27,492 nt of DNA from Maritimibacter sp. Its GTDB lineage: Bacteria > Pseudomonadota > Alphaproteobacteria > Rhodobacterales > Rhodobacteraceae. A program made the translations under genes and the position numbers. How positions within the stretch are numbered: position 1 is the first letter of the stretch; the number at the start of each line of letters is the position of its first letter. This document shows positions 9,027 to 27,492 of this stretch, piece after piece. The notes beneath the pieces were generated by a model, which ran no database searches, was not told the origin of the DNA, and worked only from the letters and a program-made list of their open reading frames with translations. Where the stretch lies: assembly GCA_020441225.1 (NCBI GenBank), contig JAGRMP010000318.1:1-27492 (forward strand), in the 5' to 3' direction.

Positions 9027-10718
9027 TCAGCCCTCGATCACCTCGACGCTCATGTTCGGGTCGACCGTGACGCTGCCCTGTTTCCTGATCCAGCCCTCGA
9101 CCAGATCGAAGATCGCCGGGCCCTCGGTGCCTTCGTTGACCGAGGCCCAGCCCGCGACCACGTAGGTCTTGCCGGGGTCGATCGCTTCGCCGCTCTTCAG
9201 CAGCGTCATGTTGGTCAACCGCTCGCCCTGGGGCTTGGTCACGTCGATCCGGTAGCCCATGCCGCCCACGCGCACCATGTCGCCGCCCTGCTGGTAATAG
9301 GGATTGGGGTTGAACAGGTTGTCGGCCACGTCTTCGAGGATGATCTTGAGCTGTTCGCCGGTCATCTCGGAACGGTAGGCGTTGGGATAGCTCATCGCGG
9401 TTGCGTTGTAGAGGTCCTCGCGGGTGATCGGATCGCCCGCCACCAGCGACGGCCCCCAGCGGAAGCCGGGGCTGAGCGCGATGTCGGCCTCGCGCTCCTC
9501 GATCAGCGCGTTGCAGATCAGATCGTCCCAGGTGCCGTTGAAATTGCCGCGCCGGTAGAGCGTGGTCTCGGTGGTGCCCAACACTTCTTCGAGCTCGGCC
9601 TTGTAGGGCGCGCGCACGCCGTCGATGTAGCTCGCCATCTCGGCATCGGGCTCGATGGCATCCGAGAAGATCGGAATGAGCTTGTGGCGGAAGCCGAGAA
9701 GCTGGCCGTTCTGCACGTCGAGGTCGAGACGGGTCACGAACTTGCCGTTGGAACCGCTCGCGATCAGCAGCGTGTCGCCCACCAGCACCGGTTCGGGCAG
9801 GGCGTCATGGGTGTGGCCGGTCAGGATCACGTCGATCCCGGGGACCTGCGCCGCCATCTTGCGGTCGACGTCGAAGCCGTTGTGGCTGAGGCAGACGACG
9901 AGGTCGGCGCCGGCGTCGCGCACCTCCTGCACCACTTCGGCCATGCGTTCCTCGCGCACGCCGAAGCTGAGGCCGGGAAACATCCACTTGGGGTTGGCGA
10001 TGGGCAGGTAGGGGAAGGCCTGGCCGATCACCGCCACCTTGGCGCCGCCGCGCTCGAACATCTGGTAGGGCTCGTAGGCCGGCTCGTCCCATTCGGCGTC
10101 GAAGATATTCGCGCCGAGGAAGGGGAAGGGCAGGTTGTCGACGATCTCGGTCACCCGGTCGATCCCGAGGGTGAATTCCCAATGCGAGGTCATCGCGTCG
10201 GGTCCCAGAAGGTTCATCGCGTCGACCATGTCCTGGGCCGCGGTCTTCATCACCGTGTAGGAGCCGTGCCAGGTGTCGCCGCCGTCGAGCAGCAGCGCCT
10301 CGGGGCGGGCGGCGCGGATCGCCTTCACCACGGTCGCCACCCGGTCGAGCCCGCCCATGCGGCCGTATTCGCGGGCCAGCGCGGTGAAATCGACGTTGGT
10401 CAGGGCATAGGCGCGGGCCGACCCGGCTTCGATGTTGTAAAGCTTGAGGAAATCTTCGCCGGTCACATGCGGCGGCAGGCCCCGGACCTCGCCGACGCCG
10501 AGGTTAATCTCGGGTTCGCGGAACCAGACCGGTTTGAGCTGACCGTGGATGTCGGTGACATGGACGAGGGTGATGTTGCCGAACGTGTCGAATTCGAGCA
10601 GCTGGTCCTGGGTGAGTTTCTGCCCGGCGGCGATCTGGGCGAAGGCGCCGGTGGCGCCGGAGCCGAGGATGGCGGAAGCGGCCATGCCGGCCTGAAGGAA
10701 GTCGCGGCGGGAAATCAT
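9027..10718 (-). CDS. soxB: SoxB, thiosulfohydrolase (sulfate thiol esterase)
   Basis: The 563-residue product is the family's usual length. The start at ATG 10718 gives a twin-arginine signal (SRRDFLQAG, residues 3-11), so it is exported folded to the periplasm. Metallophosphoesterase-type metal ligands are seen in order: HVTDIHG (D56, H58), LLDGGDTWHG (D148), GANIFD (N204), LSHNG (H279) and TGHTHD (H302, H304). SHWEFTLG (178-185) is a SoxB hallmark. The C-terminal 5'-nucleotidase-like domain follows from about residue 350. In this family a dimanganese centre hydrolyses the terminal sulfonate from cysteine-bound thiosulfate on SoxY, releasing sulfate. It is the last sox gene of the run; soxCD does not follow. 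Confidence 0.98.
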   Translation of the reverse strand: MISRRDFLQAGMAASAILGSGATGAFAQIAAGQKLTQDQLLEFDTFGNITLVHVTDIHGQLKPVWFREPEINLGVGEVRGLPPHVTGEDFLKLYNIEAGSARAYALTNVDFTALAREYGRMGGLDRVATVVKAIRAARPEALLLDGGDTWHGSYTVMKTAAQDMVDAMNLLGPDAMTSHWEFTLGIDRVTEIVDNLPFPFLGANIFDAEWDEPAYEPYQMFERGGAKVAVIGQAFPYLPIANPKWMFPGLSFGVREERMAEVVQEVRDAGADLVVCLSHNGFDVDRKMAAQVPGIDVILTGHTHDALPEPVLVGDTLLIASGSNGKFVTRLDLDVQNGQLLGFRHKLIPIFSDAIEPDAEMASYIDGVRAPYKAELEEVLGTTETTLYRRGNFNGTWDDLICNALIEEREADIALSPGFRWGPSLVAGDPITREDLYNATAMSYPNAYRSEMTGEQLKIILEDVADNLFNPNPYYQQGGDMVRVGGMGYRIDVTKPQGERLTNMTLLKSGEAIDPGKTYVVAGWASVNEGTEGPAIFDLVEGWIRKQGSVTVDPNMSVEVIEG

Positions 10719-10770
10719 CGCTGACCCTCTCGAAATTCGGTGATGTGCGGGATGCGGGGTGCAAAAGGGA

Positions 10771-10793
10771 GGCGGCCCCGCTGGGGGGCCGCC
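10771..10793 (-). terminator. Terminator-like hairpin between soxA and soxB
   Basis: The stem pairs GGCGGCCCC (10771-10779) with GGGGCCGCC (10785-10793), loop GCTGG. It is followed on the minus strand by TCCCTTTTGC and lies 11 bases after soxA. It may end part of the transcription and lower soxB relative to soxXYZA. Confidence 0.65.
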
Positions 10794-10803
10794 GTCCGGT
10801 TCG

Positions 10804-11670
10804 TCAGTTGCGGACCGAGGGGGCCTCGACCGAGAGCCCGTTGCCGCGCGAGGCGACGTAGAGCTCCAGCGCATGGAACTCGGGCCCGCCCTTGGCGTAG
10901 CTCTCGCCGCGGGTGTCGCGGACGCAGCCGTAGAAGCGGTTGTGCATCGACACCAGCGCCGACTGCTTCAGCCGGTAGACCGGGAAGCCGTTGATCTGGC
11001 CCTGCGAGAGGTGGTCGGCGCGGATGTGATGGCCGTTGTTTTCCTCATGGCAATTGGCGCAGGAGAGCTGCAACAGCCCGTGGCGGGTGTAGTAGAGCTC
11101 CTTGCCCTGCTCCCAGTAGGACTGGGCCGGGCCGTCGATGGCGACGTTGACCGGCATGCCGCGCGACTGCAGCGCGATGGCGGCGGTCATGTTCTTCATC
11201 GGGTCCTTGTCCCAGTTCCAGGCCTCGGCGCCCATCCGGTTCACCCGGCAGTCGTTGATGTAGTCTTCCATCGACCACAGCTCGCCGTTCTCCGGATTGA
11301 CCTTGGGCATGACGGCGCGCAGGCCCTTCATGCTTTCCTCGATCGAGCCGTGGCAGGAGGCGCAGCTTTCGCCCTCGGTGCCCTCGACCGTCTCCCAGGC
11401 CGTGAGACCCTCGTCGACGGCCGCCATGGCCGGGTTCTCGAAATCGTCCATCTCCATGGCGCGGGTGGTCTCGGAGCGGTAGTGCCAGCCCGAGATCACC
11501 TGTTCGAGCGCGCCTTCGAGGTGGTCGGGCGCGGCCGCGATGGTGGTCATTTCGAGTTCGTCGTTGATGACCAGCTTGGCGTCCAGATCCGGTTCCGCCA
11601 ATGCTGCCGACCCAAGGCCCAGCATCATGGCGGCGGCAAGCGCCGTGGTCGTCTTCGCGCGAATTTTCAT
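10804..11670 (-). CDS. soxA: SoxA, diheme cytochrome c of the SoxXA complex
   Basis: The 288-residue protein has a Sec signal (residues 1-25, ending AALA). Two c-type heme motifs are present: CASCH (C103, C106, H107) and CANCH (C204, C207, H208). C141 (YINDCRVNR) and C249 (RFYGCVRDTRG) occupy the positions of the heme-ligating cysteines of diheme SoxA; C249 would be the active-site cysteine. With SoxX it oxidatively couples thiosulfate to the SoxY cysteine. The start ATG 11670 has GGGAGGAGACGCG upstream; the longer open frame to 11790 is not coding sequence. Confidence 0.98.
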   Translation of the reverse strand: MKIRAKTTTALAAAMMLGLGSAALAEPDLDAKLVINDELEMTTIAAAPDHLEGALEQVISGWHYRSETTRAMEMDDFENPAMAAVDEGLTAWETVEGTEGESCASCHGSIEESMKGLRAVMPKVNPENGELWSMEDYINDCRVNRMGAEAWNWDKDPMKNMTAAIALQSRGMPVNVAIDGPAQSYWEQGKELYYTRHGLLQLSCANCHEENNGHHIRADHLSQGQINGFPVYRLKQSALVSMHNRFYGCVRDTRGESYAKGGPEFHALELYVASRGNGLSVEAPSVRN

Positions 11671-11707
11671 CGCGTCTCCTCCCTGACTTGTTCTGTTGCG
11701 GACGGTC

Positions 11708-12034
11708 TCACGCCAGCTCGATGGTTTTCGAGTCTTCGTAGACGTTGCCGTTGTCCTCGTACCAGGTGAACTTGAATTCACCGGCCGCATCGATCATCGC
11801 GTCGAACTCGATATAGGGGTTCGCCGAGACACCGCCGTGGAGCGTCATGTCGATGACGTTCTCGCCGTTGAAGTCGCAGGTGAAGCGGTTGATGATGTTC
11901 TGCGGGATGAGGTTTCCATCGCCATCCTTGCGCAGGCCCGATTCCATGACGTGGCTGATCAGGGTCTTGATGGTGATCGGTTCGCCGGCCGCGGCCGAGC
12001 TCGGAACCTTCACGCGAGGTTTTACGTCTGCCAT
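11708..12034 (-). CDS. soxZ: SoxZ, sulfur carrier complex subunit
   Basis: The 108-residue protein has no signal peptide, as expected, since SoxZ leaves the cytoplasm bound to Tat-exported SoxY. Recognisable SoxZ features are PRVKVPSSAAAGEPITIKTLISHVMESGLRKD at the N-terminus, IPQNIINRFTCDFNGE, and the closing KFTWYEDNGNVYEDSKTI. It is an all-beta immunoglobulin-like partner that holds SoxY. It lies 37 bases before soxA and 78 bases after soxY on the same strand. Confidence 0.98.
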   Translation of the reverse strand: MADVKPRVKVPSSAAAGEPITIKTLISHVMESGLRKDGDGNLIPQNIINRFTCDFNGENVIDMTLHGGVSANPYIEFDAMIDAAGEFKFTWYEDNGNVYEDSKTIELA

Positions 12035-12112
12035 TTGGTGCTCCAGAATATGCGTGTTTCTGACGTCCCGCGCCGGGGTCCTGGACGAGGGCGCGGGCTG
12101 TGGCTTCGCGTG

Positions 12113-12532
12113 TCAGCCGCCGCAGCCGCCGACCGTCACCTTGACGGGCTGGGCGGTCATGACGACGCTGCCGTCGCCCATCCGGGCCAGCGCGGTCACA
12201 TCCTGCGACTTGGCCAGGCGGATCCGGGTCGACAGGCGCTGCGACCCGGCCTTGGGGCCGAATTTCACGCTTGCGATATCGGCCGACGGGTTGCCCGGGG
12301 CGACGATGGCGATCTCTGTGGCGCCAGGCGCCTCGACTTCGACCGGCACCACGTTGCCGTTCTCGGCGATCTCGGGCGCGGTCAGGGTGATCCCGCCGTC
12401 GCCGACATCCGCGCCGCCGGTGAACGCGGCGATCGCTTCCTCGCCGGTGGCGGCGAAGGCCCCGCGGGTCACGGCGATGAGCGCGATCGCGCTTGCGCCG
12501 GCGGCCAGGGCGTTTCGTCTCGTAAAGGTCAT
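12113..12532 (-). CDS. soxY: SoxY, sulfur-carrying protein
   Basis: The 139-residue protein begins with a twin-arginine leader (FTRRNALAAGASA; R5, R6) cleaved near AFA-ATG. It ends in the diagnostic flexible arm GGCGG, whose C137 carries the sulfur substrate between SoxXA and SoxB. The middle is the immunoglobulin-like SoxY domain (ITLTAPEIAENGNVVPVEVEA). soxX ends 35 bases upstream, so soxX, Y, Z and A form one tight run. Confidence 0.98.
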   Translation of the reverse strand: MTFTRRNALAAGASAIALIAVTRGAFAATGEEAIAAFTGGADVGDGGITLTAPEIAENGNVVPVEVEAPGATEIAIVAPGNPSADIASVKFGPKAGSQRLSTRIRLAKSQDVTALARMGDGSVVMTAQPVKVTVGGCGG

Positions 12533-12567
12533 TGTCAGTTACCTCATGTGTCTGATGGCTGCGCCGC

Positions 12568-13053
12568 TCATTCCGGAAGCGGTTCGTCGAAAGTCTTGAG
12601 CAGGGCGACGAGGTCTTCGACCTGCTGTGCGGTCAGAACCGTCACTTCTTCGGTCGCCGCCTTGCCGGTGTAGCCGTCGCCGGGGCGGTAGATGTCGTCG
12701 AGATTGTAGAAGGCCGGCATCACGGTGCCCGGGAACGCCTTTTTCGAGTTCACGAGAATCCCGCGCAGGGTTGCCTCGTCGTAGACATTGGCGATGCCGG
12801 TCAGCACCGGTCCGACGTCCCCGGGGAAGGGCATGTCGGCCCAGCCCTCGGCGAAGTGGCAGGCGACGCAATTGCCGATGCCACGCTGGGTCGCGGCGTT
12901 GAAACCGGCTTCCGGGTCGCCGGGCGTGTCGGTCAGGGGGGTCGCCACCTCACCAAGTTCGCCGAAGACCACGTCCCGCGGGGCCGTTTCGGCGCTCAGA
13001 ACGGATGGAATTACCATCGTCGCTGCCGCGCAAAGCACGAACAGTTTTCTCAT
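12568..13053 (-). CDS. soxX: SoxX, monoheme cytochrome c of the SoxXA complex
   Basis: From ATG 13053 the protein is 161 residues with a Sec signal (residues 1-20, VLSAE). The heme motif is CVACH (C62, C65, H66) and the likely axial methionine is M112 in KKAFPGTVMPAFYN. SoxX takes electrons from the SoxA active site and passes them to small cytochromes. The start follows GGGAGGGCTCCG; the open frame upstream to 13287 crosses the regulatory region and is not coding. An inverted repeat at 13151-13168 suggests its own promoter and operator. Confidence 0.97.
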   Translation of the reverse strand: MRKLFVLCAAATMVIPSVLSAETAPRDVVFGELGEVATPLTDTPGDPEAGFNAATQRGIGNCVACHFAEGWADMPFPGDVGPVLTGIANVYDEATLRGILVNSKKAFPGTVMPAFYNLDDIYRPGDGYTGKAATEEVTVLTAQQVEDLVALLKTFDEPLPE

Positions 13054-13150
13054 CGGAGCCCTCCCTGATGCTCTCGTTTCGCCGCGGCTTTGTGCCGCTG
13101 TAGTTGCGTCATTTTGCCCAATTGGGCAGCGCGCGACTCGGAACGTAGCA

Positions 13151-13168
13151 GTCATATTGAAATATGAC
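13151..13168. promoter_or_regulatory. AT-rich inverted repeat upstream of soxX, candidate SoxR operator
   Basis: GTCATATT (13151-13158) and AATATGAC (13161-13168) are perfect 8-bp arms around GA, 98 bases before the soxX start. In Paracoccus pantotrophus the ArsR-family repressor SoxR binds the soxW-soxX intergenic region, which is this position. The site shares TTCAATAT with the repeat at 15355-15376. Confidence 0.6.
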
Positions 13169-13188
13169 CATATGTTTTTGTCGCTGCT

Positions 13189-13205
13189 GCGCAACATTAT
13201 TGCGC
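13189..13205 (-). other. Stem-loop between soxW and soxX genes
   Basis: GCGCAA (13189-13194) pairs with TTGCGC (13200-13205) around CATTA. It lies just before the soxW-like stop on the plus strand, so after the soxX promoter region; on the minus strand it precedes the candidate operator. No T-run follows, so a terminator role is doubtful. Confidence 0.35.
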
Positions 13206-13228
13206 CGCACTGCAGAAAGCTGCAATCC

Positions 13229-13816
13229 TCAGTTCTGCCCGTAGAAGTTTTCGGCGAAGTAACGCTGGAAATTCGGCTCGGTTTCATAGGCCTTGTCGCG
13301 GATCCAGGTGAACATCGCGAGGGTCGTGTTGCGCTCGAATGCGCCCGGCATCACCGCGACCGCGTTCTGCACCGCGGTTTGGGTTTCGTCGGCCGCCTCG
13401 GGCAGAAAGATCATCGTGGGCGTGAAGAGCAGGCCCCATCGGCGGACCATGTCCTTTTCGCTCATCACCGTGCCGTCGAAATCGGTTACCTCGAGCGCGC
13501 CGAACATGTTGAGTTGCACCACGAAGAAGCTCTCGCGGATGATCGCGTCGATGGCGGGTTTGGGAAAGATCTCCTCGTGCATCTTGGTGCAGTAGATACA
13601 GCCGCGCTGTTCGACGATCACCATCATCCGCTTGCCCTGGGCGGTGGCCTCGGCGAGGTCTTCGCCGAGGTCGAGGAAGGTCTCCTGCAGCCAGTCGGGC
13701 TTGTGCAGCCCGTCGTCGCCCAGGGTGACCTCGGCGTGGGCTGGGACGGTGAGAGCGAGGGCGGCGGCCGAGATCGCGGGGCCGAAATTTCGGAACAAGA
13801 AACGGCGGAGAAACAT
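13229..13816 (-). CDS. soxW: SoxW-like periplasmic thioredoxin, copy 1
   Basis: The 195-residue protein has a signal peptide (residues 1-28, VPAHA) and a thioredoxin fold with active site CIYC (C73, C76) and cis-proline P133 (FTPT). It would receive reducing power from the membrane protein SoxV and keep periplasmic Sox components, likely the SoxY cysteine, in active thiol state. It is clearly a tandem copy of the gene at 13911-14504: GDDGLHKPDW, ETFLDL, EQRGCIYC, KMHEE, VTDFDGT and FTPTM are shared in order. Which copy is the functional equivalent of Paracoccus SoxW is not known. Confidence 0.92.
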   Translation of the reverse strand: MFLRRFLFRNFGPAISAAALALTVPAHAEVTLGDDGLHKPDWLQETFLDLGEDLAEATAQGKRMMVIVEQRGCIYCTKMHEEIFPKPAIDAIIRESFFVVQLNMFGALEVTDFDGTVMSEKDMVRRWGLLFTPTMIFLPEAADETQTAVQNAVAVMPGAFERNTTLAMFTWIRDKAYETEPNFQRYFAENFYGQN

Positions 13817-13910
13817 GGGTCACTTTCCTGGCTGGGTGCGGATCGACGGTCCCAGGACCGGGCGGGCTTTCGCCGGTTGGGCCGGGTTGGGCGGCGTCAG
13901 GCGGGGGCGA

Positions 13911-14504
13911 TCACTCTGCGTAGATGTCCCGGTCGACGTTGAAATACTCATCGACGTAGTAGCGCTGCAGCTGCGGCTCGGTGAGGTAGGCCTTGTCCTT
14001 GATCCAGGTGAACAGGGCATGGGCCATGCGCGGCTCGAAGGCGCCGGGCAGGAAGGCGACGGCGCCGCGGGGCGCGATCACGTCCTCGGGCACGTCTTCG
14101 GGCATGAACAGCATCGTCGGGGTGAAGATGACCCCCCAGCGCACCGCCATGTCCTTTTCCGACAGGGTGGTGCCGTCGAAATCGGTCACTTCCTTGTCGC
14201 CGTAGATATTGATCTGCACGACGAAGAAGTTTTCCCGGATCAGCTTGTCGATCGACGCGATCGGAAACACCTCTTCATGCATTTTCTTGCAGTAGATGCA
14301 GCCCCGTTGCTCGGCGATGATCAGCAGGCGCTTGCCCTCCTGGTTGGCCTCGGCGAGGTCGTCGCGCAGATCGAGGAATGTTTCACGGACCCAGTCGGGC
14401 TTGTGCAACCCGTCTTCTCCGATCGGGATCTCGGCGAAGGTCGGGGTGGCGAGCCCGAGAAGGGCGAGGGCGGCGAAGCGGCGCAGCAAGGTGAGCAGGG
14501 GCAT
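13911..14504 (-). CDS. soxW: SoxW-like periplasmic thioredoxin, copy 2
   Basis: The 197-residue protein has a signal peptide (residues 1-24, TPTFA), active site CIYC (C69, C72) and cis-proline P129. It sits between soxV and the first copy, 67 bases after the soxV stop and 94 before the next start. Differences from copy 1 fall mainly in the signal peptide, the loop after the cis-proline (PEDVPEDVIAPRGAV) and the C-terminal tail, which suggests separate partners or redox potentials. Confidence 0.92.
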   Translation of the reverse strand: MPLLTLLRRFAALALLGLATPTFAEIPIGEDGLHKPDWVRETFLDLRDDLAEANQEGKRLLIIAEQRGCIYCKKMHEEVFPIASIDKLIRENFFVVQINIYGDKEVTDFDGTTLSEKDMAVRWGVIFTPTMLFMPEDVPEDVIAPRGAVAFLPGAFEPRMAHALFTWIKDKAYLTEPQLQRYYVDEYFNVDRDIYAE

Positions 14505-14571
14505 GGTCGCGGGTCCTCTCTACAGGTCGGGTTTGGCGGGCCGCACCCCGTGGGGCGGGATGGGAGCCGGC

Positions 14572-15321
14572 TCAGACGATGGTGTTTTCCCAGCTGAAAT
14601 TGTCGATCAGCCATTGGGCGATGACGTTGACGGAATTGGTCACGATGAGCAGGGCGAAGACGATCAGCATAACCCCCATCGCCTTTTCGACATAGCCCAT
14701 CAGCTTGCGGTTGCGCGCGACCCAGCCGAGGAAGGGGCGCGCGAGGGCGGCGGCGATGACGAAGGGCAGGGTCATGGCGAGGCCGTAGACCAGCAGCAGC
14801 AGGCCGCCGCGCAGGAGATCGCCGGTGCCGGACGCGACGAACAGGATCGCCGCGAGCGCCGGACCCACGCAGGGCGTCCAGCCGAAGCCGAAGGCGAGGC
14901 CCATGACATAGGCGCCGGCCATGGTCGAGGGGTCGGTCTTCGCTTCCACCCGGGCCTCGCGGTAGAGGAAGGGGATGCGCAGGATGCCGAGGAAGTGCAG
15001 GCCGAAGACCGCGAGGATCGCCGCCGCCACGTAGGACAGCGGCGTTTTCCACTGGGCGAAGGCGGCGCCCGCCGCGGTGGCGCCGAGGCCGAGGAGCACG
15101 AAGATCGTCGTCACCCCGAGGGCGAAGGCGATGGCCGAGAGGATCAGGCGGGTCTGCGCCGCGCGCGGGATCGCCGGCGCGTCGCCGGTTCCGTGCAGCT
15201 CCTGCATCGACAGCCCGGCCATGTAGGACAGATAGAAGGGCACCATCGGCAGGATGCAGGGCGAGAAGAACGACAGCAACCCCGCGAGGGCCGCGCCGCC
15301 GAATGTGATGTCCAAACCCAT
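14572..15321 (-). CDS. soxV: SoxV, CcdA/DsbD-type thiol-electron transporter
   Basis: The 249-residue membrane protein has six hydrophobic segments and the two conserved cysteines of the CcdA family: FSPCILPM in the first segment and GWTPCVGP in the fourth. It carries electrons from cytoplasmic thioredoxin across the membrane to SoxW-type proteins. The start ATG 15321 gives the standard CcdA N-terminus (MGLDITFGGAALAGLLSFFSP) preceded by an AAGGACAAG purine stretch. It is the first gene of the minus-strand sox run and faces soxS across a 65-base gap with operator-like repeats. Confidence 0.95.
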   Translation of the reverse strand: MGLDITFGGAALAGLLSFFSPCILPMVPFYLSYMAGLSMQELHGTGDAPAIPRAAQTRLILSAIAFALGVTTIFVLLGLGATAAGAAFAQWKTPLSYVAAAILAVFGLHFLGILRIPFLYREARVEAKTDPSTMAGAYVMGLAFGFGWTPCVGPALAAILFVASGTGDLLRGGLLLLVYGLAMTLPFVIAAALARPFLGWVARNRKLMGYVEKAMGVMLIVFALLIVTNSVNVIAQWLIDNFSWENTIV

Positions 15322-15914: not shown

Positions 15915-16361
15915 ATGAAACTCACTTTGACGGCGGCCGCGCTGGCCCTGGTGCTCGGGGCCCCGGCCCATGCCGACGGGCCGGTGACGACGACCGTGTC
16001 GGGCGCATTCGACGACGTCCAGTTCGACATCGAGACCGCCATCACCGATGCAGGTCTGGTGATCGACACCGTCAACCATGTCGGCGACATGCTCGAGCGC
16101 ACCCGCGAGGATGTGGGCGGCGAGGTGGTCCTTTTCACCCATGCGCAGGTGTTCAACTTCTGCTCGGCGGTGGTGAGCCGCCAGGTGATGGAGGCCGATC
16201 CGATGAACCTCCAGCATTGCCCCTATGCGATCTTCGTGGCCGAACGCCCCGAGGCGCCGGGCGAGATCATCGTCGGCCGGCGGGCCTATCCTGCAGGGCC
16301 GATGGATGCGGTGGCCGGGCTGCTCGACGGGATCATCGGCGACGCGCTCGCGGGCTACTGA
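15915..16361 (+). CDS. Periplasmic DUF302-family protein in the sox locus
   Basis: The 148-residue protein has a Sec signal (residues 1-20, APAHA) and a strong Shine-Dalgarno (AGGGAGGAAGACC). DUF302 hallmarks are the early VTTTVSGAFDDVQFDIETAITDAGLVI, the central HVGDMLERT and the later MEADPMNLQHCPYAIFVAER. Two cysteines (C83 in NFCSAV and C103 in QHCPY) may form a disulfide or bind a ligand. DUF302 proteins have a small alpha/beta fold with no settled biochemical role, but they recur beside sulfur-oxidation genes. It follows soxS by 63 bases and takes the place where soxR might be expected. Confidence 0.85.
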   Translation: MKLTLTAAALALVLGAPAHADGPVTTTVSGAFDDVQFDIETAITDAGLVIDTVNHVGDMLERTREDVGGEVVLFTHAQVFNFCSAVVSRQVMEADPMNLQHCPYAIFVAERPEAPGEIIVGRRAYPAGPMDAVAGLLDGIIGDALAGY

Positions 16362-16635: not shown

Positions 16636-17202
16636 TCAGAAGCTGCCTTCGGCGGCGCCGTCGAGGATCGCGAGGATCACATCCTTCACGTGCATCGCCT
16701 CTTCCTTCAGATCGGGGGGCAACGGCTTGCCACCGTAGATCATCATGTCCATGTCGAGCGAATAGAGCCAGAGCGCGCCGTCCGCGTCCTCGACCAGCGA
16801 CACCCGGCAGGGCAGCCAGGCCGAGTAAGCCTCGGAATACTCGACCATTTTTGCCGCCGTCAGCGGGTTGCAGTAGAGGTAGATCCCGAGCTTGCGCCAC
16901 TCCTCCTCGCGCATCAGGGTGACCTGGTCGCCGAGCGGCAGCTCTCCGACCGCGCGGATGTTTTCAGTAGCGGCGACCGACTTGATCGATTCCTCAACCT
17001 CCTCGAAGCTCAGCCCGTCTTCGACCTTGCGCCGCCATACCGTCGCTTCGACGGCATTGCCGGTTTCGGCCAGGCGTTTGGCCATGTTCCAGTAGACGCT
17101 GCCGGCTTTCGGGTCGAATTCCCGAAACGTCCAGGCCGCGTAGCCGACCGCGATGATGGCGACGAGGCCGATCAGCGCAAGTAGCCCACTCACCAATCTC
17201 AT
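16636..17202 (-). CDS. Membrane-anchored DUF302-family protein
   Basis: From ATG 17202, behind GGAGAGGAGGACCCCC, the product is 188 residues. It has one N-terminal membrane anchor (residues 3-27) and a periplasmic part whose second half shows the DUF302 pattern (LGIYLYCNPLTAAKMVEYSEAYSAWLPCRVSLVEDADGALWLYSLDMDMMIYGG). Cysteines occur in YLYCNP and WLPCRV. It faces the shorter DUF302 gene at 15915-16361 and may be functionally linked to it, perhaps at the membrane. The much longer open frame running on to 18570 is not real; the sugar dehydrogenase gene occupies it. Confidence 0.85.
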   Translation of the reverse strand: MRLVSGLLALIGLVAIIAVGYAAWTFREFDPKAGSVYWNMAKRLAETGNAVEATVWRRKVEDGLSFEEVEESIKSVAATENIRAVGELPLGDQVTLMREEEWRKLGIYLYCNPLTAAKMVEYSEAYSAWLPCRVSLVEDADGALWLYSLDMDMMIYGGKPLPPDLKEEAMHVKDVILAILDGAAEGSF

Positions 17203-17306
17203 GGGGGTCCTCCTCTCCCTAAGGTGGGTCCCATATCCCGGTTTGTGAATGCGTGTGTCAAGCGTCTTGACGTTTGCGGGTCGGGCAATGACGGGCTTCG
17301 GCCGGA

Positions 17307-22114: not shown

Positions 22115-22397
22115 GGGTCCCCCGGGGATGAGACAGCACGGCCGTCCCAGTGTCGGCCGCGTCAGAAACATAACACTTGGTCCGGGCCGGGGGAAAGATC
22201 AAGCGTTTCCGGGGCTCCGCCGGCCCCGGGCGGCAAAGGCGGCCGGTTCGGGCCGGGTGTGGCCCTGGCGCGGCCCCGGTGCGGCCGGGACGGGCCCGGG
22301 TGGGTTGCGCGCGCAATTTTCGTGCTGCGACCACTTGTGACTCGCACAAATCATAATATCCATATATGTCAGTTCAGCAGGTCAGATGGGAGGAGCC
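22115..22397. promoter_or_regulatory. Divergent nadA / coiled-coil gene promoter region
   Basis: The 283 bases contain no gene. On the plus side are a 12-bp palindrome TTGCGCGCGCAA (22305-22316), a dyad TTGTG-ACTCG-CACAA (22335-22349) and a -10-like TAATAT (22354-22359), about 40 bases before the ATG at 22398. The dyad is placed to act as an operator for the coiled-coil gene. I see no NrtR- or NadQ-like site that I can name for nadA. Confidence 0.4.
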
Positions 22398-22853
22398 ATG
22401 TACCGGCGGGCAACCAGCGGCGCATTCATCGTCGTCACCACGTTCTTGATCGTGGTGGTCATGGCGCTGTTCACCTGGGTGATCTACGGCATGGCGCGGC
22501 AGGTCTACACCCTGACCGACACCATGATCGAGATGAACCGGAATTTCGGACAGATGGTCACCGACATGGACCGGATCTCGGACAACATGGGCACGATCAC
22601 CGGGAACATGGACGAGATGACCCAGGCGATCCGGACGATGACCGGCACCATGGAAACCATGACCGATACCCTGGGCTCGATGGACGGGGCGATCACGGTG
22701 ATGTCCGGCGAGATCGAGACCATGAACCGCGGGGTCACCTCCATGGCCGGGTCGGTCTACGGGATGAACGCGGCGATGAACCGGATGACCATGGACATGG
22801 GCCGGGTGGGGCAGGCGTTCTCCAACCCGATGTCGTTGATGTTCCCGTTCTGA
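22398..22853 (+). CDS. Membrane-anchored methionine-core coiled-coil protein
   Basis: ATG 22398 is chosen because GGGAGGAGCC precedes it; an ATG four codons earlier lacks a site. The 151-residue product has one N-terminal membrane helix (about residues 9-30) and an otherwise extracytoplasmic helix. From residue 43 to 134 an unbroken heptad pattern runs for about 13 repeats. The d positions (46, then every 7) are M, M, I, I, M, M, M, M, M, M, M, M, M, and the a positions (43, then every 7) are M, F, M, M, M, I, M, L, I, I, V, V, M, M. Twenty-four of 151 residues are Met. The tail ends NPMSLMFPF. I do not recognise the family. It precedes an RND adaptor-permease pair by 416 bases and may be a periplasmic accessory of it. 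Confidence 0.88.
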   Translation: MYRRATSGAFIVVTTFLIVVVMALFTWVIYGMARQVYTLTDTMIEMNRNFGQMVTDMDRISDNMGTITGNMDEMTQAIRTMTGTMETMTDTLGSMDGAITVMSGEIETMNRGVTSMAGSVYGMNAAMNRMTMDMGRVGQAFSNPMSLMFPF

Positions 22854-23269: not shown

Positions 23270-24430
23270 ATGCAGAAAATCACCAGAATCGCACCCGTCC
23301 TTGCAGCATTCGCAGCGGCAGTTTTCACCAGCTCGGCGGCGGTTTCGCAGGACCATTCGGGGACAATGACGCCCGGGGGCTACCGAACGGCCCCTGTCAT
23401 GGTGTCGCAGGTGGGCGGCTCGGCCATCGTCGGCGGGACCGTCATCCCCTACAAGGAAATCACCGTCTCGGCCCAGGTGCCGGGCCGGGTCACGTATCTC
23501 GCCGGGGTCGAAGGCCACAGGGCCGAGACCGGAGAGGTGCTGGTCAAGATCGACGACGCCGACGTCCAGGCCCAGCGGCGCGCGGCGCTCAGCCAGATCT
23601 ACCAGGCCGAAGCGGGTCTGCGGAACTCCTACATGCAATATTCGCGCGAGCTCTATTCGCCGCGCGTGAACTCGATCACCGGCTTTCCCGGCATGGGCAT
23701 CCCGGCGACGTTCGACCAGTTCTTCACTCGCGGCTTTTCCGAGGTGATGGGCCAGTCCGACAGCGGGCTCGAACGCCAGGCCGACCTCTACGCCCAGGGC
23801 GTCGGCGTCGACCAGGCGACCAGCGGCCTCGCCGCCGCCCAGGCCAACCTCGAAGCCATCGACGCGGCGCTCGACGATTTCCAGGCCACGGCCGCTTTCG
23901 ACGGCATCATCATGCGCAAGCATATCGAGGTCGGCGATACGGTGCAGCCGGGCATGCCGCTCGTTGACTACGCCTTCATCGATTACCTGCGGATCGAGGC
24001 GGATGTGCCGGTGCGGCTCGCCGCCGGGCTGTCCGAGGGGATGCTGGTGCCGGCGCGGCTCGACTCAGGGTCCGGTCCGGTCGAAGCCCGGGTGGCGCAG
24101 ATCTATCCCGTCGCCGACCCCAAGCGCCACACCGTCACGGTCAAGTTCGACCTGCCCGTCGGCACTCCGGGCGGCCCGGGCATGTATGTCGAGGTGACGG
24201 TGCCGGATGCCTCGGTGCCGGCCCAGGCGCAGACCTCGGTTCCGCTCGAGGCGCTGGTCTGGCGCGGCAGCCTGCCGGCGGTCTTCGTGCTCGACCAGGG
24301 CAAACCTTCGCTTCGCATCGTGCGGGTCGGCTATCCGCTGCCCGATGGCACGATCTCGGTCATCTCCGGTCTCGTTGGCGGCGAGACGGTGATCCTTTCC
24401 CCGCCGTCTTCCCTGATTTCAGGGCACTAG
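23270..24430 (+). CDS. RND efflux periplasmic adaptor (HlyD/AcrA-like membrane fusion protein)
   Basis: The 386-residue protein starts at ATG 23270 after AGGGAGAGGG. It has a signal peptide (residues 1-26, AAVSQ) and no lipobox cysteine. The split lipoyl domain is visible as KEITVSAQVPGRVTYLAGVEGHRAETGEVLVKIDD (62-96) and AAFDGIIMRKHIEVGDTVQPGMPLVDY (203-229). Between them is a short helical hairpin with an unusual segment rich in aromatic residues and Gly (residues 128-163, including NSITGFPGMGIPATFDQFF). A beta-barrel and membrane-proximal domain follow. It links the RND permease downstream to an outer-membrane channel, which is not in the window. Confidence 0.92.
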   Translation: MQKITRIAPVLAAFAAAVFTSSAAVSQDHSGTMTPGGYRTAPVMVSQVGGSAIVGGTVIPYKEITVSAQVPGRVTYLAGVEGHRAETGEVLVKIDDADVQAQRRAALSQIYQAEAGLRNSYMQYSRELYSPRVNSITGFPGMGIPATFDQFFTRGFSEVMGQSDSGLERQADLYAQGVGVDQATSGLAAAQANLEAIDAALDDFQATAAFDGIIMRKHIEVGDTVQPGMPLVDYAFIDYLRIEADVPVRLAAGLSEGMLVPARLDSGSGPVEARVAQIYPVADPKRHTVTVKFDLPVGTPGGPGMYVEVTVPDASVPAQAQTSVPLEALVWRGSLPAVFVLDQGKPSLRIVRVGYPLPDGTISVISGLVGGETVILSPPSSLISGH

Positions 24431-24457: not shown

Positions 24458-27400
24458 ATGACCGACAACACCGCCACCCAGAACGGCAGCAGCCCCTCAG
24501 GCCACGGAAACGGCAACGGCAACGGAAACGGCAGCGGGCATGGCAACGGCAACGGGCACGGGCAAGACCTCGGGCTCGCCGGCCGTCTCGCCAGGGCCTT
24601 CATCAACTCGCCGCTGTCGCCGCTGCTGCTGCTCGCCTGTCTCGGGCTCGGCATCATGGGCCTCATCCTGACCCCGCGCCAGGAAGATCCGCAGATCTCG
24701 GTGCCGATGGTGGATGTGTTCTTCTCCTATCCCGGCATCTCCGCCGAGCAGGTGGCCTCGCTCGCCACCGACCCGCTCGAGCGGCTGATGAGCGAGATCC
24801 CCGGGGTCCAGCACGTCTATTCCACCTCTGCGCGCGATGGCGCCATGGTGACGGTGCAGTTCGAGGTCGGCGAGGAGATGGGTCCGTCGCTGGTCAAGCT
24901 CAACGACAAGATCCAGTCCAATCTCGACAAGATCCCGCCGGGCGTGTCGATGCCGCTGATCAAGCCCAAAGGGGTGGACGACGTGCCCGTCGTCACGCTC
25001 ACCCTGTGGAGCCACGAGGTCGATGAAGGGGCGCTGCGCGCGCTCAGCCTCGACGTGATGCAGCGGCTCAAAGAAGTGCCCAATACCTCGCAGAGCTTCG
25101 TCACCGGCGGGCGCTCCGACGCGATCAAGGTCGAGGTCTTCCCCGAACGTCTTGCCGGTTTCGGGATCGGGCTCGACGAGATTGCCCAGACGATCAACGC
25201 GGCCAATTCCGAGCGCGGCGTGGGGATGGTCGAGGCGGGGCAGAGCTCGTTCACCCTCTATACCGGCTCGTTCCTGCGCACTGCCCGCGACATCGAGAAC
25301 CTGATGATCGGCGTGAGCTTCGGCCAGCCGACCTACATCCGCGACGTCGCCCTGGTAACCCAGGGCACCGACGACGCCACCTCGATGGTCAACTACTACA
25401 CCGGCCCGGCCTATGGCGCGCATGGCGACGACGAAAGCCACGCCGCGGACCTGGAACTGGCGCCGCTCGGCGCGCCCGCCGTCACCATCGCCGTCGCCAA
25501 GAAATCCGGCTCCAACGGCGTGACCGTGACCAATGCGGTGCTCGCCGCGGTCGAGCGGCTGCAGGGCAGCCTGATCCCCGACAACGTCCATGTCGAGGTC
25601 ACCCGCAATTACGGCGAGACCGCCAACGAAAAGGTCAACGAGCTGATCTTCAAGCTCTTCGTGGTGACCGGCGCGGTGACGCTCCTGATCTGGATGGCGC
25701 TCGGTTTCCGCGCTGCGACCGTGGTGCTGATCGTGATCCCGATCGTCATCCTGGTCACCGTCTTCTCGGCCTGGCTGCTCGGCTACACGATCGACAGGGT
25801 CTCGCTCTTCGCGCTGATCTTCTCCATCGGGATCCTCGTCGACGATGCCATCGTCGTGGTTGAGAACATCTACCGCCGCTGGCTCGAAGAGGGCGAATGC
25901 TCCGAGGGCTGCTCGGTCGACGCGGTGCGCGAAGTCGGCAACCCGACCATCCTCGCCACCCTCACCGTGATCGCGGCGCTCCTGCCCATGGGCTTCGTGC
26001 GCGGGATGATGGGCCCCTATATGGAGCCGATTCCGGCGCTCGGCTCGGTGGCGATGATCTTCTCGCTGTTCGCCGCCTTCATCTTCACCCCCTGGCTCGC
26101 CCAGCGGATCCGGCCGTCGATGGAGAGCCTGGAGAAGAGCCAGGAGAGCGAGCACAAGCAGACGCTCTGGCTCAACCGCTTCTACGTCCGGCTGCTGGTA
26201 CCGCTCATCACCCGGCGACCCGTCGGCTGGGGCTTTGCCATCGGGCTGATCGCGGTGTTCCTGCTCTCGGTCTTCCTGTTCTACATGCAGGCCGTCACCG
26301 TGAAGATGCTGCCCAAGGACAACAAGCCGGAATACAACGTCACCGTGAACATGCCCGAGGGCACGCCGCTGCCGGTGACCGCCAACGTGGTCTCGCAGCT
26401 CGCCGAGCGGCTGATGACGATCCCCGAAGTGGTCGCGCTGCAGAGCTATGTCGGCACCGCGAGCCCGTTCAACTTCAACGGCCTCGTGCGCCACAGCTAC
26501 CTGCGCGACAAGCCTTGGATGGCCGATATCCAGGTCGAGATCGGTGCCAAGCACCACCGCGAGCGCTCGTCGGAAGAGCTGGCCGTCGTCACGCGCGAGA
26601 TGCTGACCCCGGTCGCCCAGGAGCTCGGCGCGCGGATCGAGGTGATCGAGATGCCGCCGGGGCCGCCGGTGCTGCAGACGATGGTCGCCGAGGTCTACGG
26701 CCCCGACGACGCCACCCGCCGCCAGGTCGCCGCCGATATCCGTGCGATGTTCGAGCGCGCCGAGATCACCGTCGATGCCGACAGCTACCTGCAGGACCCG
26801 TATACCTCCTGGCGCTTCGTGGTCGACCGCGAAAAGGCCTCGCGCCGCGGTGTTTCGGTCGAAACCATCAACCGGCAGCTCGAAATGGCGATGGGCGGCT
26901 ACATCCTCGGCGACGTGAAAACCGACCGCGCGGTCGAGCCGATGTTCATCTACCTGCAGATGCCGCTGGCGCTGCGCGGCCAGTTCGGCCGGCTCGGGCA
27001 ACTCCCGGTGCCGTCGGTGACCGGCGCGATGATCCCGCTGACGGAGCTCGGCCATTTCGAGGAATTCCAGCTCGACGACCCGATCTATCACAAGGACCTC
27101 CGCGCGGTGGAATTCGTCACCGGTGAGGTGACCGGCAAGCTCGGCGCGCCGATCTACGCGATCTTCGAGCTCGAAGACCTTCTCGACACCTACGTCGCCC
27201 CCGACGGCGTGCGGGTCGACACCAACTATGTCGGTCCGCCCGAGAACACGCTTTCGTCCGCGCTCGAATGGACCGGCGAATGGACGGTGACCTACGAGAC
27301 CTTCCGCGACATGGGTCTGGCCTTCGCCGTGGCGCTGATCCTGATCTACATCCTTGTGGTCTGGGAGTTCGGCAACTTCACCATCCCCGCAATCGTCATG

Positions 27401-27492
27401 GTGCCGATCCCGCTCACGCTCATCGGCATCGTGCCCGGCCACTGGCTGTTCGGCGCCTCCTTCACCGCAACCTCGATGATCGGCTTCATCGC
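24458..27492 (+). CDS. RND-family efflux permease (3' end beyond window)
   Basis: The frame is open from ATG 24458 (Shine-Dalgarno GGGAGGAGAT) to the window end, 1011 complete codons. Residues 15-37 are a tail of Gly, Asn and His. Membrane segment 1 (SPLSPLLLLACLGLGIMGLI) is followed by the porter domain (PQISVPMVDVFFSYPGISAEQVASLATDPLE). Segment 4 carries the proton-relay aspartates D462 and D463 (GILVDDAIVVVENIYRR). A second porter domain and segments up to about 11 (ILIYILVVWEFGNFTIPAIVMVPIPLTL) are visible, so roughly 100-140 residues are missing. It is a proton-driven exporter of the AcrB/HAE superfamily, 27 bases after its adaptor. Substrate unknown; the neighbourhood allows metals or sulfur-related compounds. 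Confidence 0.93.
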   Translation, partial: MTDNTATQNGSSPSGHGNGNGNGNGSGHGNGNGHGQDLGLAGRLARAFINSPLSPLLLLACLGLGIMGLILTPRQEDPQISVPMVDVFFSYPGISAEQVASLATDPLERLMSEIPGVQHVYSTSARDGAMVTVQFEVGEEMGPSLVKLNDKIQSNLDKIPPGVSMPLIKPKGVDDVPVVTLTLWSHEVDEGALRALSLDVMQRLKEVPNTSQSFVTGGRSDAIKVEVFPERLAGFGIGLDEIAQTINAANSERGVGMVEAGQSSFTLYTGSFLRTARDIENLMIGVSFGQPTYIRDVALVTQGTDDATSMVNYYTGPAYGAHGDDESHAADLELAPLGAPAVTIAVAKKSGSNGVTVTNAVLAAVERLQGSLIPDNVHVEVTRNYGETANEKVNELIFKLFVVTGAVTLLIWMALGFRAATVVLIVIPIVILVTVFSAWLLGYTIDRVSLFALIFSIGILVDDAIVVVENIYRRWLEEGECSEGCSVDAVREVGNPTILATLTVIAALLPMGFVRGMMGPYMEPIPALGSVAMIFSLFAAFIFTPWLAQRIRPSMESLEKSQESEHKQTLWLNRFYVRLLVPLITRRPVGWGFAIGLIAVFLLSVFLFYMQAVTVKMLPKDNKPEYNVTVNMPEGTPLPVTANVVSQLAERLMTIPEVVALQSYVGTASPFNFNGLVRHSYLRDKPWMADIQVEIGAKHHRERSSEELAVVTREMLTPVAQELGARIEVIEMPPGPPVLQTMVAEVYGPDDATRRQVAADIRAMFERAEITVDADSYLQDPYTSWRFVVDREKASRRGVSVETINRQLEMAMGGYILGDVKTDRAVEPMFIYLQMPLALRGQFGRLGQLPVPSVTGAMIPLTELGHFEEFQLDDPIYHKDLRAVEFVTGEVTGKLGAPIYAIFELEDLLDTYVAPDGVRVDTNYVGPPENTLSSALEWTGEWTVTYETFRDMGLAFAVALILIYILVVWEFGNFTIPAIVMVPIPLTLIGIVPGHWLFGASFTATSMIGFI

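Follow-up and report, generated by a model that had tools for sequence, protein, structure and literature searches.

The window analysed in this work, a stretch of 27,492 nucleotides from Maritimibacter sp., carries on its forward strand a gene for a small protein with a methionine-cored coiled coil (hereafter Met coil), followed by the genes of an RND adaptor and permease; a sox cluster lies on the opposite strand (Table 1). Pfam domains and position led us to name SoxB, SoxX, SoxV and two SoxW-like proteins as presumable further members of this cluster, and SoxCD was not seen next to SoxB in the list of window ORFs. The sox cluster belongs to the same pathway and is outside the Met-coil operon; sox genes were also neighbours in a related locus (L045). 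Several additional features were observed in this part of the window: sugar-type ABC transporter-like genes to the left of the sox cluster (plus strand, by eye), two adjacent thioredoxin-like genes of SoxW type with the look of a duplication (13229-13816 and 13911-14504, minus strand), and an apparently secreted protein of 148 aa (15915-16361, plus strand), which had no Pfam match at E <= 0.01 and was 84% conserved in L045. A relative of the DUF302 protein adjoins the adaptor in contig L102.

Table 1. Coordinates of the features considered in the window.
Feature	Position	Strand	Basis
Met-core coiled-coil protein (Met coil), 151 aa	22398..22853	+	translation, shuffles, AlphaFold2 model
Unbroken Met heptads (codons of residues 43-134)	22524..22799	+	heptad count
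RND periplasmic adaptor, 386 aa	23270..24430	+	HlyD_D23; TIGR01730 over cut-off
Conserved segment between the long hairpin helices of the adaptor (residues ~128-173)	23651..23788	+	alignment; low-confidence model
AcrB-type RND permease, ended by the window edge	24458..27490	+	PF00873
sox genes	9027..15300	-	SoxA, SoxY, SoxZ by Pfam
TM and DUF302 protein	16636..17304	-	tblastn relatives among module genes in L115, L117, L118 and L119

The Met coil consists of a short Arg-bearing N-terminus, one transmembrane (TM) helix and about 14 heptads with Met at d, and it closes with the C-terminal motif AFSNPMSxMF..PF. An alternative in-frame ATG was found at 22386 and some homologs have extended N-termini; since most homologs start with MYRR or MYKR, 22398 is the likelier start. 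With the register set at residue 43 for a and residue 46 for d, the 13 d positions between residues 43 and 134 were occupied by 11 Met and 2 Ile and the 14 a positions by 7 Met, 3 Ile, 2 Val, 1 Leu, and 1 Phe, so that M, I, L, V or F stood at 27/27 core positions and the heptad ran without a break, exactly as had been counted when the protein was first read from the sequence alone. Shuffling the segment 20,000 times never gave 27 hydrophobic core positions (best shuffle, 18) or 11 Met in one register (best shuffle, 10). The 3-4 heptad pattern is beyond chance. The antisense frame of this ORF is likewise open; open antisense frames are frequent in GC-rich DNA. AlphaFold2, run as a monomer model with 80 family members as input, returned a single unbroken helix from residue 7 to residue 142 (mean pLDDT of 87.7, with 105/151 residues at 90 or above). 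The membrane anchor and the rod with a Met-lined core, as initially proposed, were supported. According to the positive-inside rule, the N-terminus would be cytoplasmic and the rod periplasmic.

All Pfam and NCBIfam models scored below their cut-offs with the Met coil, in agreement with the earlier statement that no family could be recognised; the best Pfam scores were those of DUF948 (28.1 bits) and DUF1664 (27.3 bits), and PF17228 was absent from the 23 Pfam matches at E up to 5. A first homology search with the Met coil returned 4 relatives, and the profile built from these four sequences collected 103 proteins at E <= 0.01, the four included. Inspection by eye showed that the complete relatives have in common a TM helix, heptads rich in Met and a C-terminal motif of the kind AFSNPMSYMWGNPFPF. 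For the composition count, 5 fragments and an antisense reading were excluded, together with 5 more sequences lacking the anchor motif, which left 94 proteins including that of the window, 6 of them anchored at a wrong, nearer site. In these 94 proteins Met filled 895 of the 1,101 d cells (Leu 148, Ile 49) and was also the most frequent residue at a (476 cells; Ile 255, Val 217), so that the predominance of Leu at d that marks a canonical coiled coil was not found in the family. A swap of Met for Leu or Ile across homologs, which would have refuted the initial reading, was therefore not seen in most of the family; in a small low-Met subgroup (P0093, P0095, P0096, and P0099-P0102), Leu, Val, and Ile are mixed into the core and Met takes about one third of the best register. 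In 90 of the 99 members having both a TM motif and a C-terminal motif, the spacing of the two was equal modulo 7, which indicated that insertions and deletions are of whole heptads. Over 117 family proteins Met amounted to 14.6% and Leu to 3.6% of residues, and Cys appeared 3 times in 17,224 residues; adaptors are also Cys-poor (29 Cys in 20,397 residues of 61 sequences, taken as control), and hence low Cys alone says little about the rod. A PDB sequence search with the rod gave 396 matches at E up to 1, the best 60 of which were assorted coiled coils and helical bundles, so that matches to solved structures are uninformative. An origin of the Met coil in mobile elements was also considered and discarded, as no relative of the window protein was found in plasmids and none was confirmed in viral contigs. 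The final homology search, carried out with the wider relatives, gave 17 matches, one of them titled 'hypothetical protein'.

The gap between the Met coil and the adaptor in the window is 416 bp, and co-transcription of the two is putative. The conserved extra segment of the adaptor has the consensus SPRxNSxxGxPGMGxPxxFDQFFTRGFSxxMGQSxxxLERQADL; the structure model of this protein reached a mean pLDDT of 58.5, and structural claims do not rest on it. The permease scored 394.7 bits with PF00873, over the cut-off; truncated as it is, it stayed below every listed NCBIfam cut-off, including that of the CusA/CzcA model TIGR00914 (183 bits vs. 701.45). Its fourth transmembrane helix reads GILVDDAIVVVEN, with two Asp, which we take to mean that it is not of the HME type; neither a TIGR00914 score over cut-off nor an HME-type TM4 motif supported membership in the CusCBA-like metal RND group. 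Of the parts that make up a tripartite RND pump, the window holds the adaptor and the permease. As regards the outer-membrane channel, no TolC-type cluster was recognised (no OMF profile was used) and there is no space for its gene in L121, and it could sit elsewhere. The beginning of the permease ORF (24458-24577, plus strand) encodes a His/Gly/Asn-rich tail, HGNGNGNGNGSGHGNGNGHG.

The neighbourhood of the Met coil was then compared among relatives, with operon genes assigned by conserved clusters and tblastn. An RND adaptor was located on the same strand at most 1.2 kb downstream in 41/48 loci. An M41-like gene sits between the Met coil and the adaptor in L005 and L007. Among the other seven loci, the RND genes lie upstream in L009 and L043, the Met coils of L011 and L012 adjoin other module genes (the pump of the L012 genome being on contig L102), the contigs L019 and L046 stop after no more than some 210 bases, and no module gene was found around the Met coil of L048. 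When 248 genomes of one family were searched, the 8 genomes with a Met coil (E <= 1e-5) were exactly those with the adaptor (E <= 1e-40) (P = 3e-15, a value that ignores kinship and genome completeness). One of these eight (G070) has a fragmented Met-coil match containing a stop, in another both the Met coil and the adaptor are divergent, the latter at 37% identity (G120), and G008 carries its Met coil and its pump on separate contigs. The conserved link with an RND pump which had been anticipated for this protein was thus confirmed.

The longest arrangement, that of L121, comprises eleven genes: Met coil, adaptor, permease, two secreted low-complexity proteins and a sulphur-globule-type protein, and then DUF4412-like, ParA, TM/TPR, dynamin-like and M41-like genes. 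The same order was found in L001, whose contig runs out at the dynamin-like gene, and in L101, except that one secreted protein and the sulphur globule protein (SGP) were missing by tblastn; an SGP gene is present in L022, from the same genome as L101. Over 71 loci, tblastn located the permease in 53, the adaptor in 51, DUF4412 and ParA in 29 each, TPR in 28, the dynamin-like gene in 26, the M41-like gene in 13, SGP in 11, DUF302 in 6 and, of the remaining secreted proteins, one in 6 and one in 3. Low-complexity proteins are poorly detected by tblastn, and many of the contigs are short. ParA, DUF4412, and TPR were downstream in 16 of the 20 loci with at least 9.5 kb on that side (of the first 48); the exceptions were L009 and L012, with another arrangement, L031, a shortened remnant, and L047, with DUF4412 only. 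In the remnant (L031:10610-12800) a short adaptor is followed by pieces of the dynamin-like and M41-like genes, the genes from permease to TPR being absent by tblastn. In four loci of the Magnetospira order (L115, L117, L118, and L119) the dynamin-like gene precedes the Met coil and a DUF302 gene belongs to the run. No module gene was shown by L104, L105, L109, L111, L114, and L120, several of which are short contigs. The recurrent operon genes included none recognisable as metal-handling (no metal-binding profile was used), and no msr-like gene was seen among the recurrent clusters (again with no profile).

Several secreted low-complexity proteins are encoded per operon in relatives, and the small W/G/N/Y-rich one matches the Pfam family PF17228, Sulphur globule protein. 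Among 17 distinct operon proteins the match was listed for 14, seven of which passed the curated cut-off of 26.7 bits (L118, 87.9; L113, 75.1; L119, 74.0; L117, 65.7; L106, 64.9; L009, 43.0; and L006, 37.3 bits) and seven of which stayed below it; it was not listed for the remaining 3/17 (L003 and both L110 proteins). These matches rest partly on the W/G/N/Y-rich composition and the weak ones are worthless, but the scores of 65-88 bits, which recur at one position of the operon in both the Magnetospira order and a second class, are hard to dismiss. The SGP gene is a feature of the operon in relatives, and the window ends ahead of the position at which it would be expected. Secreted proteins encoded ahead of the SGP gene (L117:2032-2529, L009, L001, and L002) end in SPFGFW, FAPFGIW or SWMPFW. 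These ends recall the NPFPF end of many Met coils and are possibly a shared docking tail.

Wider relatives were found in two groups of hosts. In the order of the Magnetospira MAG G006 (L043), 23/150 genomes gave a match at E <= 1e-4 and 15 at E <= 1e-15. Over the phylum, Met-coil matches appeared in 54/398 genomes, mostly in one block, presumably the class Magnetococcia, with several matches per genome; some of these matches, found in frames as long as 1,503 aa, probably represent other coiled coils. Met was the commonest core residue in both groups too, and 17 wider relatives (13 from the phylum block and 4 from the order) were 17-29% identical to the first, with three Met invariant. Some loci of the second class (L107, L108, L112, L122, and L123) contain two differing Met-coil paralogs as a pair after a distinct RND permease, 39-40% identical, and tblastn found neither SGP nor ParA near these pairs. 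In L105 (10193-10816) a paralog stands, by eye, between a cytochrome-c-peroxidase-like ORF and long membrane sensor-like ORFs, with no RND gene near.

The presence of dsrA, scored as TIGR02064 over cut-off, followed that of the Met coil. In the G006 order it was present in 15/15 strong positives vs. 45/135 other genomes (P = 3e-7, with the threshold of E <= 1e-15 chosen after the matches had been seen), and in 18 of all 23 positives vs. 42/127 negatives (P = 1e-4), 5 of the 8 weaker positives being without dsrA. In the family it was found in 5/6 positives vs. 10/118 others (P = 7e-5; 124 genomes, presumed to be a subset of the 248, 20 not listed). None of these P-values is corrected for kinship or genome completeness. 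Queried directly, 11/13 positives had dsrA, with none over cut-off in G120 and G005, as did 12/13 genomes of the second class, where positives only were considered. The isolates Sinisalibacter aestuarii B-399 and Maritimibacter fusiformis HY14 each have both the Met-coil gene and dsrA. Thus, a dsrA-bearing host is indicated by association in two taxa, that is, for relatives and not for the window genome itself. ORFs similar to dsrE/F/H adjoin dsrA in L124 (by eye), which speaks for a dsr system of the oxidising type at that locus. The 45 dsrA-bearing genomes of the order with no strong Met-coil match indicated that the family is dispensable for Dsr-based oxidation. Two other candidates for the common trait were set aside: SoxCD-less thiosulfate oxidation showed no association (TIGR04555 over cut-off in 5/8 positives and in 151/248 genomes overall), and SoxY was a weaker correlate than dsrA (13/15 strong positives vs. 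76/135 in the order, P = 0.027; 8/8 positives vs. 164/240 in the family, P = 0.11).

In relatives, the pump-centred gene set of the Met coil is found together with granule-coat and sulfur-oxidation genes, and a part for the Met coil in making or handling sulfur granules is therefore probable. Its place in a sulfur-globule module of relatives is well supported, and we judge it fairly probable that the protein is a component of a periplasmic sulfur-globule gene module in dsr-bearing sulfur-oxidising Alphaproteobacteria and a second class.

A purely structural coiled coil is quite possible as well: the rod would serve the RND complex as a spacer or tether, or would bridge inner membrane and globule, and its Met would be mere flexible filler that does not touch sulfur. 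The changes by whole heptads and the one continuous helix suggest that register matters above length, the best PDB matches listed are diverse coiled coils and helical bundles, and the low-Met subgroup accommodates Leu, Val, and Ile in its core, all of which suits a spacer. Such a rod should nevertheless drift to Leu or Ile, yet both the share of Leu at d and its overall content are small, and in the two classes alike Met occurs in the core more often than any other residue. We regard as unlikely the idea that the RND operon and the Met coil serve the secreted low-complexity proteins or another surface polymer, the link to sulfur being ecological only. It would account for the several secreted proteins per operon and need not assume a sulfur cargo, but protein export is not a known function of RND pumps, and one of the secreted proteins belongs to a curated sulphur globule family. 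The globules of A. vinosum and Ca. Thioglobus are moreover periplasmic (PMC10386293, PMC6509183), which also argues against a surface polymer.

The Met content could be read in two further ways. An oxidant-quenching surface, repaired by methionine sulfoxide reductase, fits with high Met and low Cys; it is very unlikely, however, given that Met is mainly in the core, that no msr-like gene was seen among the recurrent clusters, and that such a surface would not account for the link with dsrA and SGP. Still less credible is a periplasmic helper that binds Cu(I)/Ag(I) for a metal pump, an idea put forward in the sequence-only reading on account of the Met-lined core and not upheld here. Many Met pairs are indeed 3 and 4 residues apart, but these residues occupy the core a and d positions, the permease is of the AcrB and not of the metal type by its TIGR00914 score and its TM4 helix, the recurrent operon genes offered no recognisable metal gene, and the operons encode sulphur globule proteins; as a main reading it was rejected.

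Our best reading of the Met coil is thus that of a periplasmic scaffold of the sulfur-globule module, for which the following mechanism may be proposed. The rods would associate side by side as a bundle beside the pump and span about 15 nm of the periplasm, and the conserved motif at their C-terminus might touch the globule coat or the odd adaptor tip. Inside the envelope, the pump would shift or arrange sulfur, polysulfane or coat protein as its hydrophobic cargo, at a site placed and shaped by ParA and the dynamin-like protein. In usual adaptors, the tip docks to the outer-membrane channel. The extra segment at this docking tip, together with the lack of space for a channel gene in L121, favours work inside the envelope over outer-membrane export. 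The Met core could provide a soft, flexible, thioether-lined and nearly Cys-free surface tolerating zero-valent sulfur, which would make persulfides with Cys; a Met-rich, Cys-poor core would fit contact with zero-valent sulfur and equally a flexible structural core. A more far-reaching version of the scaffold is conceivable but doubtful. In it, zero-valent sulfur would pass along the Met-lined, Cys-poor bundle or dock on it; together with the RND pump, whose adaptor would have its tip rebuilt at the point of TolC docking in other adaptors, the bundle would put sulfur chains into periplasmic globules or take them out, and ParA and the dynamin-like GTPase would position and shape the globule membrane. 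If true, it would amount to a dedicated organelle-like machine for the biogenesis and transport of sulfur globules, of a kind for which no description was found among the matches listed in the open-access literature.

In the literature covered, the established parts of periplasmic sulfur globules are coat proteins only; how globules are built, placed, and emptied, and by which route their sulfur reaches the cytoplasmic Dsr enzymes, are in our judgement open questions. The operon, with SGP, RND pump, ParA, dynamin-like GTPase, and Met coil, offers concrete genes in named isolates and MAGs, and its Met core is a natural test of whether elemental sulfur is handled by thioether surfaces. Neither the operon nor a Met-cored coiled coil beside an RND pump was described among the top matches listed in the open-access literature. 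The Met-coil family is absent from the libraries searched, and the operon adds testable genes for globule biogenesis beyond the coat proteins.

Among known systems, excerpts of a study on A. vinosum describe periplasmic sulfur globules that carry SgpA-D, SgpD (Alvin_2515) being the most abundant globule protein (PMC10386293). Like the predicted rod of the Met coil, SgpD is periplasmic, and it is globule-bound, with two predicted helices and possibly a coiled coil; its gene adjoins that of a hydrophobic/amphiphilic exporter (PMC10386293), which we take to be an HAE-type RND transporter. Unlike the Met coil, SgpD has a cleavable signal peptide and no TM anchor, a comparison made by description only, and the excerpts mention no Met core (PMC10386293). 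Deletion of SgpD in A. vinosum had no visible effect according to the same excerpts (PMC10386293), so that single parts of the module may be redundant. Globules of Ca. Thioglobus are likewise reported as periplasmic (PMC6509183), and the RND genes of A. vinosum reported to be induced on pyrite (PMC11267869) are other loci. The PF17228 proteins share operons with the Met coil in relatives, although they are Gly/Trp/Tyr/Asn-rich and secreted and the Met coil has no PF17228 match. The TM coiled coils DUF948 and DUF1664 come closest among Pfam families, yet below their cut-offs (37.2 and 34.6 bits, respectively). The coiled-coil domain of MmpL10 is said to oligomerise this transporter (PMC12183618), a member of the RND superfamily; it differs from the Met coil in lying within the transporter itself, which serves mycobacterial lipid export. 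Finally, the pump resembles those of the AcrB/MdtBC type, with an adaptor over the TIGR01730 and a permease over the PF00873 cut-off, and departs from them in the conserved extra hairpin segment of its adaptor, in the absence of space for an outer-membrane channel gene in L121, and in being accompanied by ParA, dynamin-like, and SGP genes.
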